DNA of 46,609 nt from Oscillospiraceae bacterium (GTDB lineage: Bacteria > Bacillota > Clostridia > Oscillospirales > CAG-272), in contig SVTS01000013.1 of NCBI GenBank assembly GCA_015063645.1, positions 1 through 46,609 of the forward strand, in the 5' to 3' direction. Below are positions 4,626 to 28,165 of the stretch, piece after piece. How positions within the stretch are numbered: the first letter of the stretch is position 1; each line of letters begins with the position of its first letter. A program made the translations under genes and the position numbers. Below the pieces are notes generated by a model. That model was not told the origin of the DNA and ran no database searches. It worked only from the letters and a program-made list of their open reading frames with translations.

Positions 4626-7361
4626 TCACATCGTTATATCATTCTTGTTCATCGCCTCATTCTCGTTCTGCGCCGCCTGCACAGGCGAGGCTTTGCAGAG
4701 CAGGGCGAGCTGTTCCTCGCTGAGATTCCGGGCAGGCGCAAAATCATCGCTTCCCGCATACGCGATCATCCGCGCCTTCAGCCATCGCGCCGCCGGATCC
4801 GCATCCGTCAGACGAAGCGTGCAGAGCAGCAGCTTTCCCGCTCCGATCCGGTATTCAGCCAGCATCGCTTCTCTGTGGGCGTTCTTGTAGGAGGACGCAA
4901 TATCCACAATCGGTCGGTGCGGCATCTCCATCAGATCAAACACCGCGGATTTGCTTCCGTTCATCATCGTCTCAAACTGCCGTCCGCAGTATCCGTCGTG
5001 GGGAAAATCCGCCATCAGCGGATGATCCGCCACCACCGTCGCCAGATGACCCGTAGTCCGTCCCGCGATGGACAGCTGGAAGGACACGTCATACGCCGCA
5101 AAAGGTCCTGTGCCAAGGAGCACCACGTTCTTGCCTTCGCGCATCAGGCGGAGCAGATCACTGCCGGTGCAGTCGCTGAGAACCACGGTATTTTCGTCCG
5201 CTTCGGCTGCATCCGCTTCCGGGAACACATACAGATCCCACATGTTGTCGCAGTCCGTGTCATCCCCGGAGAGGGAAACATGCAGAGTCAGCGCCATGGG
5301 TTTTGCACACATCGGCATGGTGAATCGGATGCGCTGCAGCTCGCTGATTGCCCCGCGGGGGATCTCACCGGTGCGGATCTCCTGCCGGTAAAGCACCCTG
5401 CCGCCGCCGCTCAGGCGGATCTGCAGAAGCGCGTCCCGGATCGGCTTTCCGTAATGGGATACCAGTACGGGAATCTCCGCCTCAGCTCCTGCGGTGTAGT
5501 TCACGCATCGCGGCAGATCTGCCAGCAGAACCGTATCGCCGTTGTAGCGGCGGACGTTCTCCGCGCTCTCACCGGGCTTCAGCTCGTAGAATTCGTTCAT
5601 CATGCCCACGCAGTAGCCGAAGGTGTGCCAGTGGGTATCGATATCGCCGAGGAAATCGTAGCCCGCAAAGGTCTCGCATCGGCGCACCGTCTCAAAGCAG
5701 TGCTTGCGCAGAATCCTCTGCCACTGGGCGGAGTTGCGGTAATAAAGATTCGCCCGGTCGGCAAGTCCCTTGTCCGTGAGATGCTTCCTGACGGAGGACA
5801 TGAACTCCGTATCCCCGATCCGGGTACCTTTGTAGCGTTCCTCAAGGGAGAGATCGATGTAGGTGCCGTGGATGCAGATCTCGTGGGTGAGCAGGGGTTT
5901 TCCGTAGACCGCGTTGCGGCGGTCGATCACTTCCTTTGTGCCGGAAGCGGAGGAATAACTGGTCAGCCCCAGAGAATAGCTGTTGTACACATCGCAGAAT
6001 CTGCCCACGTCGCCCAGCCGGCGGGGATTGTATTTGAACGGCTCGTCTGCGAATTCGTCATCCCTGATGCAGTATTCGATGCCGCGCATGGCGGACATGG
6101 GGGAGAAAAGCGAATCCGTTTCGCCGTGCACCAGTGCGGCGCACGCTTCCAGATGCTTTTCGTAATCCGCGTCGATCTGCAGTTCGTTTCCGGTGGAGTA
6201 CAGATTCACCGCCGCGTGACGGCGGCAGAAGCGCACAATCTCCCGCCACTCCGCAAGGGAGGTATTGTTGGGCGATTCTATCTCCATCAGCATGCCGAGC
6301 TCGTCCGCCGCTTCCATGTATTCCTCCGGGGGAACCCATGTGTGGAAGCGGATGGAGTTGAAGCCCAGCTCCTTCAGCGTGCGGATCACGGAGCGGTAGT
6401 AATTCTTCTCCCGGGTGGGATGCACCGTCACGGGCTGATAGCAGTGTTCGCAGCTTCCGCGGAAGAAATACGGCTCGCCGTTCAGGTGCAGGCGGATACC
6501 GTCTGCGGTGAGGCGGCGGATGCCGAAGCGGCAGGACAGCGTCTGATTTTTCGTTTCGATTACGGCGGTGTACAGCTTCGGCGCATCCGGCGACCACAGC
6601 GCAAGCCCCTCCGCGCCGATCACGCAATACTCCTGCCCGGCGGGAATCTCCGCCGTCCGGACGCAGATGTCCCCATCCAGAATGCGGACGCTGATTACCG
6701 CATCCGCCGCGCCGTCGGTGTGCACCGTAAAGGATGCGCAGTCCTGCGCCGTGGTGATCCACAGATCCCGCAGACCGTCCGGGCAGAAACACAGTGCCGC
6801 ATCGCCCCAGATGCCGCCGGTGCATTCGTTTGCCGCACGGGAGGTCAGTCCGGAGACGGGATGACCGTTATATCCCGCCAGACGGTTATTGGACACCGCC
6901 AGCGTGATGCGGTTTTCCCCGGCGATCAGCACGCCGGAGGGCACGGAGAAGGCGAAAGGCGCGGAATATCCCTCGTGCCGTCCCAGATATACGCCGTTGA
7001 TCCAGGCGGAGACGGCATTCTGCGCGCCGCCGATACGCAGCTCCGTTTTGCAGGCGGGAGCCTCATCCAGCACGGCGGTTTTCCGGTACACAAAGCACCC
7101 CACGGGATTGGGCAGAGCCATATCGGGCACATAGCCCGCCTGGGGATAGCGCTGAAGCGTGTACAGGGGATTGTAACGCAGTTTCGTGTGCAGTGCCGTG
7201 GTGCGGAACAGATCCGCCATATCCTCCCAGTATCCCGGGACGGGCACATCCACGGCGCTGTCTGACTGCGGGGAGATCAGCGGCTCCGCCTCCGAGGTAT
7301 ACGGCTGATCGGAAAGCCAGTCAAAGTGCCATTTTCCATTCAGATTCATGGTGTTGTTCAT
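4626..7361 (-). CDS. Glycoside hydrolase family 2 protein (beta-galactosidase/beta-glucuronidase-like)
   Basis: NLNGKWHFDW start, jelly-roll and TIM-barrel GH2 motifs (FNSIRFHTWVPPEEYMEAADELGM, STGNELQ acid/base region, LLTHEICIHG nucleophile region). Confidence 0.88.
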   Translation of the reverse strand: MNNTMNLNGKWHFDWLSDQPYTSEAEPLISPQSDSAVDVPVPGYWEDMADLFRTTALHTKLRYNPLYTLQRYPQAGYVPDMALPNPVGCFVYRKTAVLDEAPACKTELRIGGAQNAVSAWINGVYLGRHEGYSAPFAFSVPSGVLIAGENRITLAVSNNRLAGYNGHPVSGLTSRAANECTGGIWGDAALCFCPDGLRDLWITTAQDCASFTVHTDGAADAVISVRILDGDICVRTAEIPAGQEYCVIGAEGLALWSPDAPKLYTAVIETKNQTLSCRFGIRRLTADGIRLHLNGEPYFFRGSCEHCYQPVTVHPTREKNYYRSVIRTLKELGFNSIRFHTWVPPEEYMEAADELGMLMEIESPNNTSLAEWREIVRFCRRHAAVNLYSTGNELQIDADYEKHLEACAALVHGETDSLFSPMSAMRGIEYCIRDDEFADEPFKYNPRRLGDVGRFCDVYNSYSLGLTSYSSASGTKEVIDRRNAVYGKPLLTHEICIHGTYIDLSLEERYKGTRIGDTEFMSSVRKHLTDKGLADRANLYYRNSAQWQRILRKHCFETVRRCETFAGYDFLGDIDTHWHTFGYCVGMMNEFYELKPGESAENVRRYNGDTVLLADLPRCVNYTAGAEAEIPVLVSHYGKPIRDALLQIRLSGGGRVLYRQEIRTGEIPRGAISELQRIRFTMPMCAKPMALTLHVSLSGDDTDCDNMWDLYVFPEADAAEADENTVVLSDCTGSDLLRLMREGKNVVLLGTGPFAAYDVSFQLSIAGRTTGHLATVVADHPLMADFPHDGYCGRQFETMMNGSKSAVFDLMEMPHRPIVDIASSYKNAHREAMLAEYRIGAGKLLLCTLRLTDADPAARWLKARMIAYAGSDDFAPARNLSEEQLALLCKASPVQAAQNENEAMNKNDITM

Positions 7362-23593: not shown

Positions 23594-23620
23594 ATATAGC
23601 AGATTTTCCCGGGAATTATC

Positions 23621-23860
23621 CATGTCATTAACTAAGACGTAATACATGTACATTCTGCACAAGTGCGGATTTTTCCGGAGCGAATGCCTCGGGCAAGGAG
23701 CGGTCTCACCTGCCGGCTCGGTCAGCGCTTCAAAATGCTTTGCATTTTGAGGTCTCCACCGGAGACCCGCGCCCCCCCTTGCATCCCCCCCCGTATATTG
23801 GGTTCAGTCGGGGGCTTCGTCCCCGACGCCCCCAGGACAGTTTTCTATCCTTGGTATAAC
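23621..23860 (+). repeat. Degenerate copy of the MITE-like element at 26076-26351
   Basis: catgtcattaactaag...gcacaagtgcgg...gggcaagg(a/g)gcggtctc(a/g)cctgccggctcggtcagcgcttcaaaatgctttgcattttgaggtctccaccggagacccgcgccccc shared almost base for base. Confidence 0.8.
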
Positions 23861-23996
23861 TTGGTATAAATTGTTCAATATACTCTTTTACCCCAATGAA
23901 ATTCCCCCCGGAAAAGCGTATTTTTCAACCGTATTCCACACATTCCCGCTTTTTTGTGTTATAATTATTACATTCCCACTGCCTGAGAGGATTATC

Positions 23997-25358: not shown

Positions 25359-25409
25359 GGTACATCCGATCATCTGAGAAAAACATGCGGGCAGAGGAGG
25401 GAATTGCGC

Positions 25410-26036
25410 ATGATCTACCTGTTTGAACATCCGGATGCATATCCGGATGCGCTCCTTGAAGCGCGGCTGCGGCAGATTCCCCCGTGGCGCCGTGATAAGG
25501 CACTGCAGTACATCCATCCCGGGGACAGAAAACGTTCCGTGCTGGCGTTTCTGCTTCTGCAGCTGGCTCTGCGCGAAGAATACGGCATCACGGAGATATC
25601 CGGATTTGCATACAGCGCATGGGGAAAACCGTTTCTGCGTGATCACCCGGTCCACTTCAGTCTGAGCCACTGCCGGGACGCCGTCGCCTGCGCCGTCTCC
25701 GATCAACCGGTCGGCATCGACGCGGAATGCATCGTGCCGTATGATCCCGCCCTTGCCCGGCGGGTCTGCTCCGGAAGGGAGACGGAGATGCTGGCGCGGA
25801 GTAAAAATCCGGCGGATGATTTTATCCGGCTGTGGACAATGAAAGAGGCAATCTCCAAATGGGAGGGCAGGGGGATTTCCATGCCCTTTGAGGAGATCGA
25901 TGTGTCCCTGTACCGGACGGAAACATGGATTCTGCCCGGCACAGATACGGTTCTGTCCCTGTGCCGGGGCAAAACTGGCGACAGCTGCGGTCAGTCATCC
26001 CCCGTAATGCGGTACGTCCGCACGGATGAGCTGTGA
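25410..26036 (+). CDS. Sfp-type 4'-phosphopantetheinyl transferase
   Basis: WGKPFL...HFSLSHCRDAVACAVSDQPVGIDAECI and FIRLWTMKEAISKWEGRG (PPTase core motifs); 51 bp after MATE. Confidence 0.93.
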   Translation: MIYLFEHPDAYPDALLEARLRQIPPWRRDKALQYIHPGDRKRSVLAFLLLQLALREEYGITEISGFAYSAWGKPFLRDHPVHFSLSHCRDAVACAVSDQPVGIDAECIVPYDPALARRVCSGRETEMLARSKNPADDFIRLWTMKEAISKWEGRGISMPFEEIDVSLYRTETWILPGTDTVLSLCRGKTGDSCGQSSPVMRYVRTDEL

Positions 26037-26075
26037 GACGTTGAGGACAGCGGAACAAATATGCTATGCGTTGCC

Positions 26076-26351
26076 CAATGTCATTAACTTAAGCACATAC
26101 TGTATACAATATGCACAAGTGCAGCTTTTTCCGCCGCTAACGCGGCGGGCAAGGGGCGGTCTCGCCTGCCGGCTCGGTCAGCGCTTCAAAATGCTTTGCA
26201 TTTTGAGGTCTCCACCGGAGACCCGCGCCCCCCCTTGCATCCCCCCCTATATATTGGGTTAAGTCGGGGGCACAGCCCCCGACACCCCCCGGGACAGCTT
26301 TCCACCCTTTGTGCAAATTGTACAATGATCTTTCTTAAGTTAATGACATTG
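26076..26351. mobile_element. MITE-like non-coding element with 18-bp perfect TIRs and 10-bp flanking direct repeat
   Basis: CAATGTCATTAACTTAAG (26076-26093) / CTTAAGTTAATGACATTG (26334-26351); ATGCGTTGCC directly abutting on both sides (26066-26075, 26352-26361). Confidence 0.82.
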
Positions 26352-26358
26352 ATGCGTT

Positions 26359-26400
26359 GCCGGAGGATTTTGCAGTGCAGAATCCTCCGGCACTGTTTTT
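26359..26400 (+). terminator. Hairpin terminator (family H1), inferred original terminator of MATE-PPTase operon
   Basis: gccggaggattttgc-agt-gcagaatcctccggc then actgttttt. Confidence 0.7.
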
Positions 26401-26517
26401 GCGGATCAGTCAGAAGATTGCCCACGCTTATTTCCGGACACATCCCCGGCAGCAGCATTTACTCTTAACGTATGTTTTATTGCCGTCACACGAAAAAGAT
26501 ACTCCCGAGATTCTTTG

Positions 26518-26609
26518 GGGGACGGTACCCTCGATGTCCCGACACGAACGATTACAGACATAAAATGTGTTTTAAGCTGACGTAACGGGACGTCGTGGGC
26601 GCCGTCCCC
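26518..26609. repeat. Imperfect 24-bp inverted repeat element
   Basis: GGGGACGGTACCCTCGATGTCCCG (26518-26541) vs CGGGACGTCGTGGGCGCCGTCCCC (26586-26609): 20/24 complementary positions by eye. Confidence 0.55.
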
Positions 26610-26700
26610 TACAAGACTGATGTTTGTTTTGCTTCTGATCCATTCCTTCTGTTTTCCGTATAAGTATATGCTGTTTCCGCACGGACACGTCTCCCCTCTG

Positions 26701-26782: not shown

Positions 26783-28165
26783 ATGAGAAAAAAATATATC
26801 CCCGCGCTGGCACTTCTGGCAGCCGCGCTGATCCTCATCGGCATCGCAGCCGGCCAGTTGATCCGCCGCGGGAAGGACACCGATACCGGCGAAGCCCTGC
26901 CGACAGATATTCAGGTGACCGAGCAGGAGACCACCGCACCGGTGACTACAGTTCCGGAGACTTCCGCGCCCGATACTACTGCTCCGGTGACTTCCGCGCC
27001 GGTGACCACCGCACCCGATACCACCGCGCCCGATACTACCGCGCCCGTGACCACCGCGCCCGATACTACCGCTCCGGCGACTTCCGCGCCGGTGACCACT
27101 GTGCCCGATACCACTGCTCCTGAGACCACTGCGCCGCCGCATTCCCATGCGCCGGCGGGAAATGTGCTCTGCGATGCGGATCGGCACTGGTATCTCTGTT
27201 CCTGCGGAATCACGCTCCGGGAGAGCGCCCATGCCGATTACAATCTGTCCGGGAAATGCGATCTCTGCGGCTATCCCATGCCTGTGGAGACACAGCCGCC
27301 GCAGACGTCTCCGGCGGAAACACAGCCGCCCATCCTTCAGGAAGGGGAAGCACTGCAGGAGATCCTGCAGCCTGCACAGATCACCCTGCTGCGCCCGGAA
27401 GCCAGCGGAACGCTTACCGCTGAAACAAAAACGGCTGTGCTGGATTATTCCCACACCGGGGACGGATATATCATGATCCGCTTCACCGAAGAGGTGACCG
27501 AACGGCTCAAGGTCAAGCTGGAAGGCCCGACAACGACCTACACCTACAACATAAAGCCGCTGGAATGGACCGTGTTCCCCCTGTCGGACGGAAACGGGGA
27601 ATACCGGGCGACAGTCTACCGCAACATATCCGGCAGCCGCTACGCCGCCGTGCTGGCACAGCGGTTCACCGCTCAGATGGAAAACGAATTCGCGCCGTTT
27701 CTGCGCCCCAATCAGTATGTGAATTACGAAAACGCCGTGAACACCATGAACAAGGCGGCAGAGCTGTCGGCGGGCATCACCGACACGCTGAAAAAAGTGG
27801 AAGCCATCTATTCCTATGTGACCCGGACAATCACGTACGATTATGACAAAGCCGGCTCGGTGCAGAGCGGCTACCTGCCGGATCTGGATCGGGTTCTGGA
27901 GGAAAAAAAGGGCATCTGCTTCGACTACGCCGCGCTGATGACCGGCATGCTCCGCTCCCAGAATATCGCCTGCAAGCTGATTGTGGGATATGCCGACAGT
28001 CAGTACCACGCCTGGATCAGCGTCTGGACGCCGGACAAGGGCTGGATCGACGGCGCGATCTTCTTCGACGGCGAAAAATGGCAGCGCATGGATCCCACCT
28101 TTGCCTCCGCAGGCGGAAGCAAGGCAATGGAGGGCGTCGTCTACACGTCCAAATATATCTACTGA
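26783..28165 (+). CDS. Membrane-anchored/secreted transglutaminase-like protein with Thr/Pro repeat stalk
   Basis: N-terminal TM; TTAPDTTAPVTT repeats; Cys-rich HWYLCSCG...CDLCGYP; transglutaminase core KGICFDYAALMTGMLRSQNI...YHAWISVW...MDPTFA (Cys-His-Asp triad). Confidence 0.88.
   Translation: MRKKYIPALALLAAALILIGIAAGQLIRRGKDTDTGEALPTDIQVTEQETTAPVTTVPETSAPDTTAPVTSAPVTTAPDTTAPDTTAPVTTAPDTTAPATSAPVTTVPDTTAPETTAPPHSHAPAGNVLCDADRHWYLCSCGITLRESAHADYNLSGKCDLCGYPMPVETQPPQTSPAETQPPILQEGEALQEILQPAQITLLRPEASGTLTAETKTAVLDYSHTGDGYIMIRFTEEVTERLKVKLEGPTTTYTYNIKPLEWTVFPLSDGNGEYRATVYRNISGSRYAAVLAQRFTAQMENEFAPFLRPNQYVNYENAVNTMNKAAELSAGITDTLKKVEAIYSYVTRTITYDYDKAGSVQSGYLPDLDRVLEEKKGICFDYAALMTGMLRSQNIACKLIVGYADSQYHAWISVWTPDKGWIDGAIFFDGEKWQRMDPTFASAGGSKAMEGVVYTSKYIY
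26929..27138 (+). repeat. Coding tandem degenerate repeat encoding T-[TS]-[AV]-P-[DVE]
   Basis: Translated TTAPVTTVPETSAPDTTAPVTSAPVTTAPDTTAPDTTAPVTTAPDTTAPATSAPVTTVPDTTAPETTAPP. Confidence 0.85.

Follow-up and report, generated by a model that had tools for sequence, protein, structure and literature searches.

Several kinds of mobile DNA are found at transcription terminators. Group IIC introns favour the 3' side of terminator hairpins; they are retroelements without terminal inverted repeats (TIRs) or target duplications. The insertion sequence IS1630 (IS30 family) reportedly goes into terminator-like inverted repeats; it makes longer duplications and belongs to a family other than IS4. 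For E. coli IS4 an AAA-N20-TTT rule has reportedly been described, and an insertion of this element in the pheST attenuator is also said to be known. IS1272/TnSha1, from the IS1182 family, inserts into hairpins, several of which are proven transcription terminators, without duplicating the target and with loss of part of the stem (PMC4923244). The elements of the IS4 subgroup have ends of the form -AATR--------WTW---- and direct repeats of 10-13 bp, and a strong specificity of their target arms was noted by De Palmenaer et al. 2008, in whose text the word terminator is absent (PMC2266710). Also cited there are MIC231 and other IS4-family mobile cassettes, which are non-autonomous, carry IS4-family ends and are moved in trans (PMC2266710).

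The element described here was found in a window (the whole stretch of DNA that was analysed, 46,609 nucleotides) from an Oscillospiraceae bacterium. It is most like the IS4 subgroup, whose type element is E. coli IS4, in its terminal consensus, 10-13-bp duplications, A-tract phase and terminator targets, and differs in that the window copy is 276 bp long and non-coding, with a helper transposase not found in its own 83%-complete assembly. MIC231, in contrast, is of the IS231 subgroup, and the window element has no passenger gene. The IS1182-type mode of hairpin targeting, with no duplication and partial deletion of the hairpin, is not what is seen here: the targets are kept whole and exactly duplicated, and the transposase families differ. 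The type of element, the insertion into terminator hairpins and the arm specificity of IS4 are known; the family of miniature inverted-repeat elements (MITEs) is new, and its terminator target rule is made explicit here.

A foldback element between a gene and its terminator

The features of the window that matter here are the following, with approximate limits where stated.

23620..23880, plus strand: older, degenerate copy of the MITE family upstream of the MATE-PPTase operon, 85% identical; end approximate
25404..26036, plus strand: 4'-phosphopantetheinyl transferase (PPTase) gene, whose 3' end adjoins the insertion (PF01648, E = 7e-14)
26066..26075, no strand: left copy of the target-site duplication (TSD), ATGCGTTGCC, 10/10 identical to the right copy (from the sequence)
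26076..26093, plus strand: TIR, A-type end, CAATGTCATTAACTTAAG and then CACATACTGTATACAATATGCACAAG (repeat search, end typing)
26094..26333, no strand: GC-rich non-coding interior with several nested hairpins (RNA folding)
26160..26227, plus strand: palindromic module of about 68 bp (copy comparison; boundaries approximate)
26334..26351, minus strand: TIR, C-type end, the exact reverse complement of CAATGTCATTAACTTAAG (repeat search, end typing)
26352..26361, no strand: right TSD copy, ATGCGTTGCC, 10/10 match (from the sequence)
26358..26401, plus strand: intrinsic terminator of the MATE-PPTase operon, a 16-pair stem (26358-26392) and then the tail CTGTTTTT; intact

Sequence reading and a repeat search of the window agree that the 276-bp segment 26076-26351 is bounded by perfect 18-bp TIRs. 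For 46.6 kb, the number of perfect inverted repeats of 18 bp expected by chance within 300 nt is about 2e-4, and this figure does not yet require the 10-bp duplication. The sequence-only reading of this DNA had proposed just such an arrangement of perfect TIRs and an exact 10-bp TSD around a non-coding segment, and the sequence matches it exactly at a negligible chance expectation. The weaker similarity that it had seen to continue inward from the TIRs is also real, with pairing of the arms running inward to 43 nt at 79% complementarity. There is no convincing open reading frame for the 276-bp element in the ORF list, where two 90-aa frames cross it.

If one TSD copy and the element are excised, the PPTase stop codon (26036) is followed after about 30 bp by the 16-pair terminator hairpin and its T tail. 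The sequence-only reading had described this restored order, and both the hairpin at 26358-26392 and the tail CTGTTTTT are found as it claimed. It had further held that the insertion separated the MATE-PPTase operon from its terminator. The geometry bears this out, since the terminator is now 286 bp farther downstream of the stop than before the insertion, but the hairpin is intact and a loss of termination is nowhere indicated. When the flanks were used to look for an empty orthologous site in the genus, only repeat matches came back, with no alignment of the flanking DNA beyond the repeats.

Copies and duplications in the genome

In the 3.03-Mb assembly the exact 18-bp TIR occurs 46 times, and there are at least 29 copies of the MITE. 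The sequence-only reading had suggested a search for copies elsewhere, and BLASTN of the 276-bp segment against its own genome gives 57 matches. Among 397 members of the family, the own genome included, only five have the exact TIR. The copies form a recent burst that is nearly absent from relatives, including sister species.

Many copies break contigs, and in these cases ends on different contigs were paired by their TSD alone. Allowing up to three mismatches in the TIR, 60 ends were read, of which 29 are of type A, 20 of type B and 5 of type C, with 6 others. Elements with an A and a B end are 192-420 bp long, those with an A and a C end 206-276 bp, and the interiors differ among copies with identical ends. 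Complete copies on a single contig have TSDs of 10-11 bp. In total there are 14 end pairs with an exact TSD of this length, several of them spanning contig breaks, where about 0.002 chance 10-bp pairs would be expected among 1,770 comparisons. The exact pairs among A, B and C ends always join A with B or C and never A with A, and the remaining exact pair joins two ends with a variant TIR. This consistency validates both the pairing of ends and the length of the duplication. Most complete copies carry TSDs, one complete end pair (on contig C10) being without.

The window element is a MITE by every test made, as had been proposed from its letters: it is short, lacks a transposase, has perfect TIRs, a near-constant TSD length and a high recent copy number, and has its TIR in common with autonomous IS4-family elements. 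It might instead be a domesticated regulatory or RNA gene that does not move, and the predicted fold of the whole element is indeed very stable (MFE -132 kcal/mol, z = -11 against shuffles). This is very improbable, given that it falls in no Rfam family (the search of the window at the gathering score gave no match), that the copies have TSDs and the numbers of a burst, and that they are nearly absent from sister species and vary in their interiors while keeping the same ends. A conserved position and sequence across species, together with an abundant stable transcript, was not seen either.

Target sites are mostly terminators

To describe the target, the flanks of 17 sites in the own genome were joined with one TSD copy removed. 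Most of the joined sites are intrinsic terminators whose loop holds the TSD, for instance AAAAAGATGCGCAT-GCCG-TATGCGCATCTTTTTTT at C18 and AAAAAAGCACCGCATTATGATAATGCGGTGCTTTTT at C111. When loop-centring is measured as the number of complementary mirror positions around the TSD centre, 11 of the 17 sites reach the threshold of at least 10 of 12, a score found at 0.3% of 32,231 sampled positions and, where ORF-free positions (1,393) are counted, at 1.3%; at the other six a good palindrome is absent. At least four A on the left combined with at least four T on the right are found at 65% of the sites, compared to 0.5% of the sampled and 2.0% of the ORF-free positions. The A-tract has a fixed phase, lying at -18 to -22 from the element, and over 53 flanks the share of A at -18 to -20 is 81-83%. 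Unpaired flanks have an A run of at least four in 13 of 20 cases (background 7% per 18 nt). Terminators are the rule for this MITE family and not an accident of the window copy, a point that the sequence-only reading had missed.

The window copy itself is a family member in a terminator region and a weak example of the loop rule, as it shows the A/T-arm part only. Its joined site is aacAAAtatgct-ATGCGTTGCC-ggaggaTTTTgcag, with the A and T arms at the expected distance; the T's of the right arm are part of the terminator stem, whose first position is 26358. The TSD abuts this stem rather than lying on the loop, and the mirror-pair score of the region is 5/12. The other sites with poor palindromes (C24 and the ends on C95 and C119) are similar in that they keep the A-tract, the T-tract or both at the expected distance.

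Affiliation with IS4

The TIR CAATGTCATTAACTTAAG fits the terminal consensus of the IS4 subgroup at every stated position (PMC2266710), and the 10-11 bp of the 14 exact pairs lie within the direct-repeat range of that subgroup, 10-13 bp. A search of the own assembly (G000) for the DDE_Tnp_1 domain (PF01609) found none; the same search works in nine of 14 control genomes. This absence says little, because the assembly is 83% complete and broken at the MITE repeats, and repeats are often lost from such bins.

Transposases with the matching TIR, which the sequence-only reading had advised looking for, do exist in other genomes. An exact-TIR scan of 85,462 species genomes gave at least 116 stretches, and among the 80 loci listed there are two elements of insertion-sequence length with long, intact transposase frames: L202, of 1512 bp, with exact TIRs at both ends and a 453 aa transposase, and L163 (from Lachnoanaerobaculum), of 1718 bp, with a frame of 447 codons. 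Two others with the exact TIR, L144 and L189, are broken relatives, and L117, from the same family as the window species, is an insertion sequence with one TIR mismatch. The proteins of L163, L202 and L117 score above the NCBIfam cut-off for the IS4 family, carry DDE_Tnp_1 and have a readable YREK motif with the Y-R-E-K spacing of IS4, though none of them comes from the own genome. Their identity to the E. coli IS4 transposase is 20-21%, which is low but significant. With the L117 and L163 transposases as queries, one match (40% identical, in G027) was found among 29 relatives and none in 377 genomes of the order, which means that the autonomous form is rare near the window species. The window element is thus a non-autonomous member of the IS4 subgroup, and the transposase that moved the copies in its genome is inferred from those of other genomes.

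The MITE-family TIRs also lie beside genes for ECF sigma factors (PF04542/PF08281) at L121 and L122 (both in G282) and at L091 (2376-2393). The L121 and L122 ends have a common exact 10-bp TSD, ATGGGTATGG, and may together delimit a single larger element that carries passenger genes.

The same rule in E. coli IS4

The generality of the target was examined in E. coli IS4, for which the left end served as query. It occurs at 4,861 places in 2,560 genomes; 24 of these places were read and reduce to 11 sites that are distinct and complete, all with an exact TSD of 11-14 bp. At eight of the 11 the TSD is centred on a terminator loop; these lie beside or after glcA, eno, tynA, glgP, rpsO, ogrK, adhE and bamD. 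The other three, which are not of this kind, lie near nanX (an old site), at ynbB/ynbC and within bcsG. At an equal threshold the local background is 0.8% (p ~2e-15). The A-tract is also present, with 73-85% A at -18 to -20, in the same phase as in the MITE. Terminator targeting of the IS4 type, with an A-tract at -18 to -22 and a loop-centred TSD, is therefore a property of the MITE family as a whole and of E. coli IS4.

One way to arrive at such a distribution is survivorship, where the transposase inserts widely, insertions into genes and promoters are lost, and harmless ones at 3' ends remain. Many sites do lie 12-30 bp past a stop codon, where damage would be small. This explanation is improbable, since 65% of the sites and 1.3% of ORF-free positions are loop-centred, and the phase of the A-tract is fixed to the base pair and equal in E. 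coli IS4, and the TSD is loop-centred; a register exact to one base is not something that selection on fitness would produce. That two distant transposases have this register in common points instead to recognition by the transposase, which probably exerts the target preference.

What the transposase would recognise is a separate matter. It could be the hairpin or cruciform formed by terminator DNA, as reported for IS1272, and in favour of this the TSD sits on the loop at 11 of the 17 own sites and at eight of the 11 in E. coli. We consider it rather unlikely, as the sites with poor palindromes in the window and at C24, C95 and C119 keep an A-tract, a T-tract or both, which makes the arms seem a more general feature than the stem. 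The A/T arms are the better candidate for the signal because these poor palindromes retain at least one of them.

Among the elements with the exact TIR, L202, L163 and L144 are also in terminators. Other targets are used by elements that carry this TIR in Desulfobacterales and some Lachnospiraceae; the target is thus not set by the TIR alone, and specificity varies within the group. In L131, L138, L140, L179, L180, L206 and L209 (Lachnospiraceae and a Eubacterium MAG) the 10 bp next to the same TIR are repeatedly like GTTCACTCC or GGAGTGAAC; here identical ends go with another target rule.

Proposed mechanism

Taken as a whole, the best explanation, and a highly probable one, is that of an IS4-subgroup MITE mobilised in trans into A/T-armed sites, mostly terminators, where foldback would make it near-neutral. 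An IS4-type DDE transposase acting in trans would recognise the 18-bp ends, make a staggered cut of 10-11 bp and paste the element into a target where the TSD is flanked, at a distance of about 8-12 bp, by an A-tract on one side and a T-tract on the other. The commonest site of this kind in a bacterial genome is a bidirectional intrinsic terminator, which would place most copies in a terminator loop. There the element would fold back on itself through its TIRs, leaving the arms of the terminator to pair around it in the transcript. RNA folding of eight complete inserted sites predicts that the flanking arms re-pair around the element in most, with 25 of 30 left-flank bases re-paired at C18 and 26 of 30 at C111, and by this model termination may still work when such a foldback element sits in the loop of a terminator. 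If it loops out in this way, an insertion would be almost neutral, which would partly account for the high copy number.

What had been a loose remark on the arm specificity of IS4 becomes a rule with a register: an A-tract, 10-14 duplicated bases centred on the terminator loop, and a T-tract. As it holds for E. coli IS4, it can be tested directly in the laboratory. From it one can predict the places where such elements should turn up and the genes whose read-through is at risk of change, and it offers a reason why foldback derivatives may become more numerous than the autonomous elements they came from. A wider and more tentative idea, possible but short of probable, is that IS4-subgroup transposons use terminators as a safe haven across phyla, where foldback derivatives are transparent to termination and can rise in copy number without cost.

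Other repeats in the window and the genome

The older copy at 23620-23880 lies between divergent MATE genes, so that the MATE-PPTase operon is flanked by a copy at either end. It has a left TIR with four mismatches, and its right TIR and TSD are unrecognisable. A composite transposon made of the two copies around the operon was considered and ruled out because of the decayed state of the 23620 copy and its lack of a TSD.

The palindromic module of about 68 bp (26160-26227) is present in the 276-bp form of the MITE and missing from the form of 206-208 bp. It is 97-98% identical in the otherwise diverged 23620 copy, and occurs without TIRs at C116, C49, C60 and C86, beside other G-rich hairpins; the comparison also took in L012, L013, L030 and the loci L281-L284. 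The module seems to be a second repeat that is spreading or converting on its own.

A longer type of element has the variant TIR CAATGTCATTTAGATAAG and an inner repeat, GTTTAGATAAG, and is found at L077 (3146) and L103 (200), on contigs C74 and C114, and at L104 (345) and L105 (559). Its TSD, GTGAAAGCTC, lies in a perfect terminator, and one short element is nested 138 bp inside it. On C106 a span of 3.3 kb between two TIRs was considered as a full element and rejected: the ORF list shows an ORF of carbohydrate type there but no transposase, and the span represents two separate insertions or a chance pair.

Downstream of the terminator, a 27-bp stretch of the window (26585-26612, the GGGACGTCGTGGGCGCCGTCCCCTA region) recurs at several places in the sister species G004 and is a dispersed intergenic repeat. 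The ORF that follows, at 26783-28165, has a long repeat rich in Thr, Pro and Ala (TTAPDTTAPVT...) ahead of its C-terminal part.
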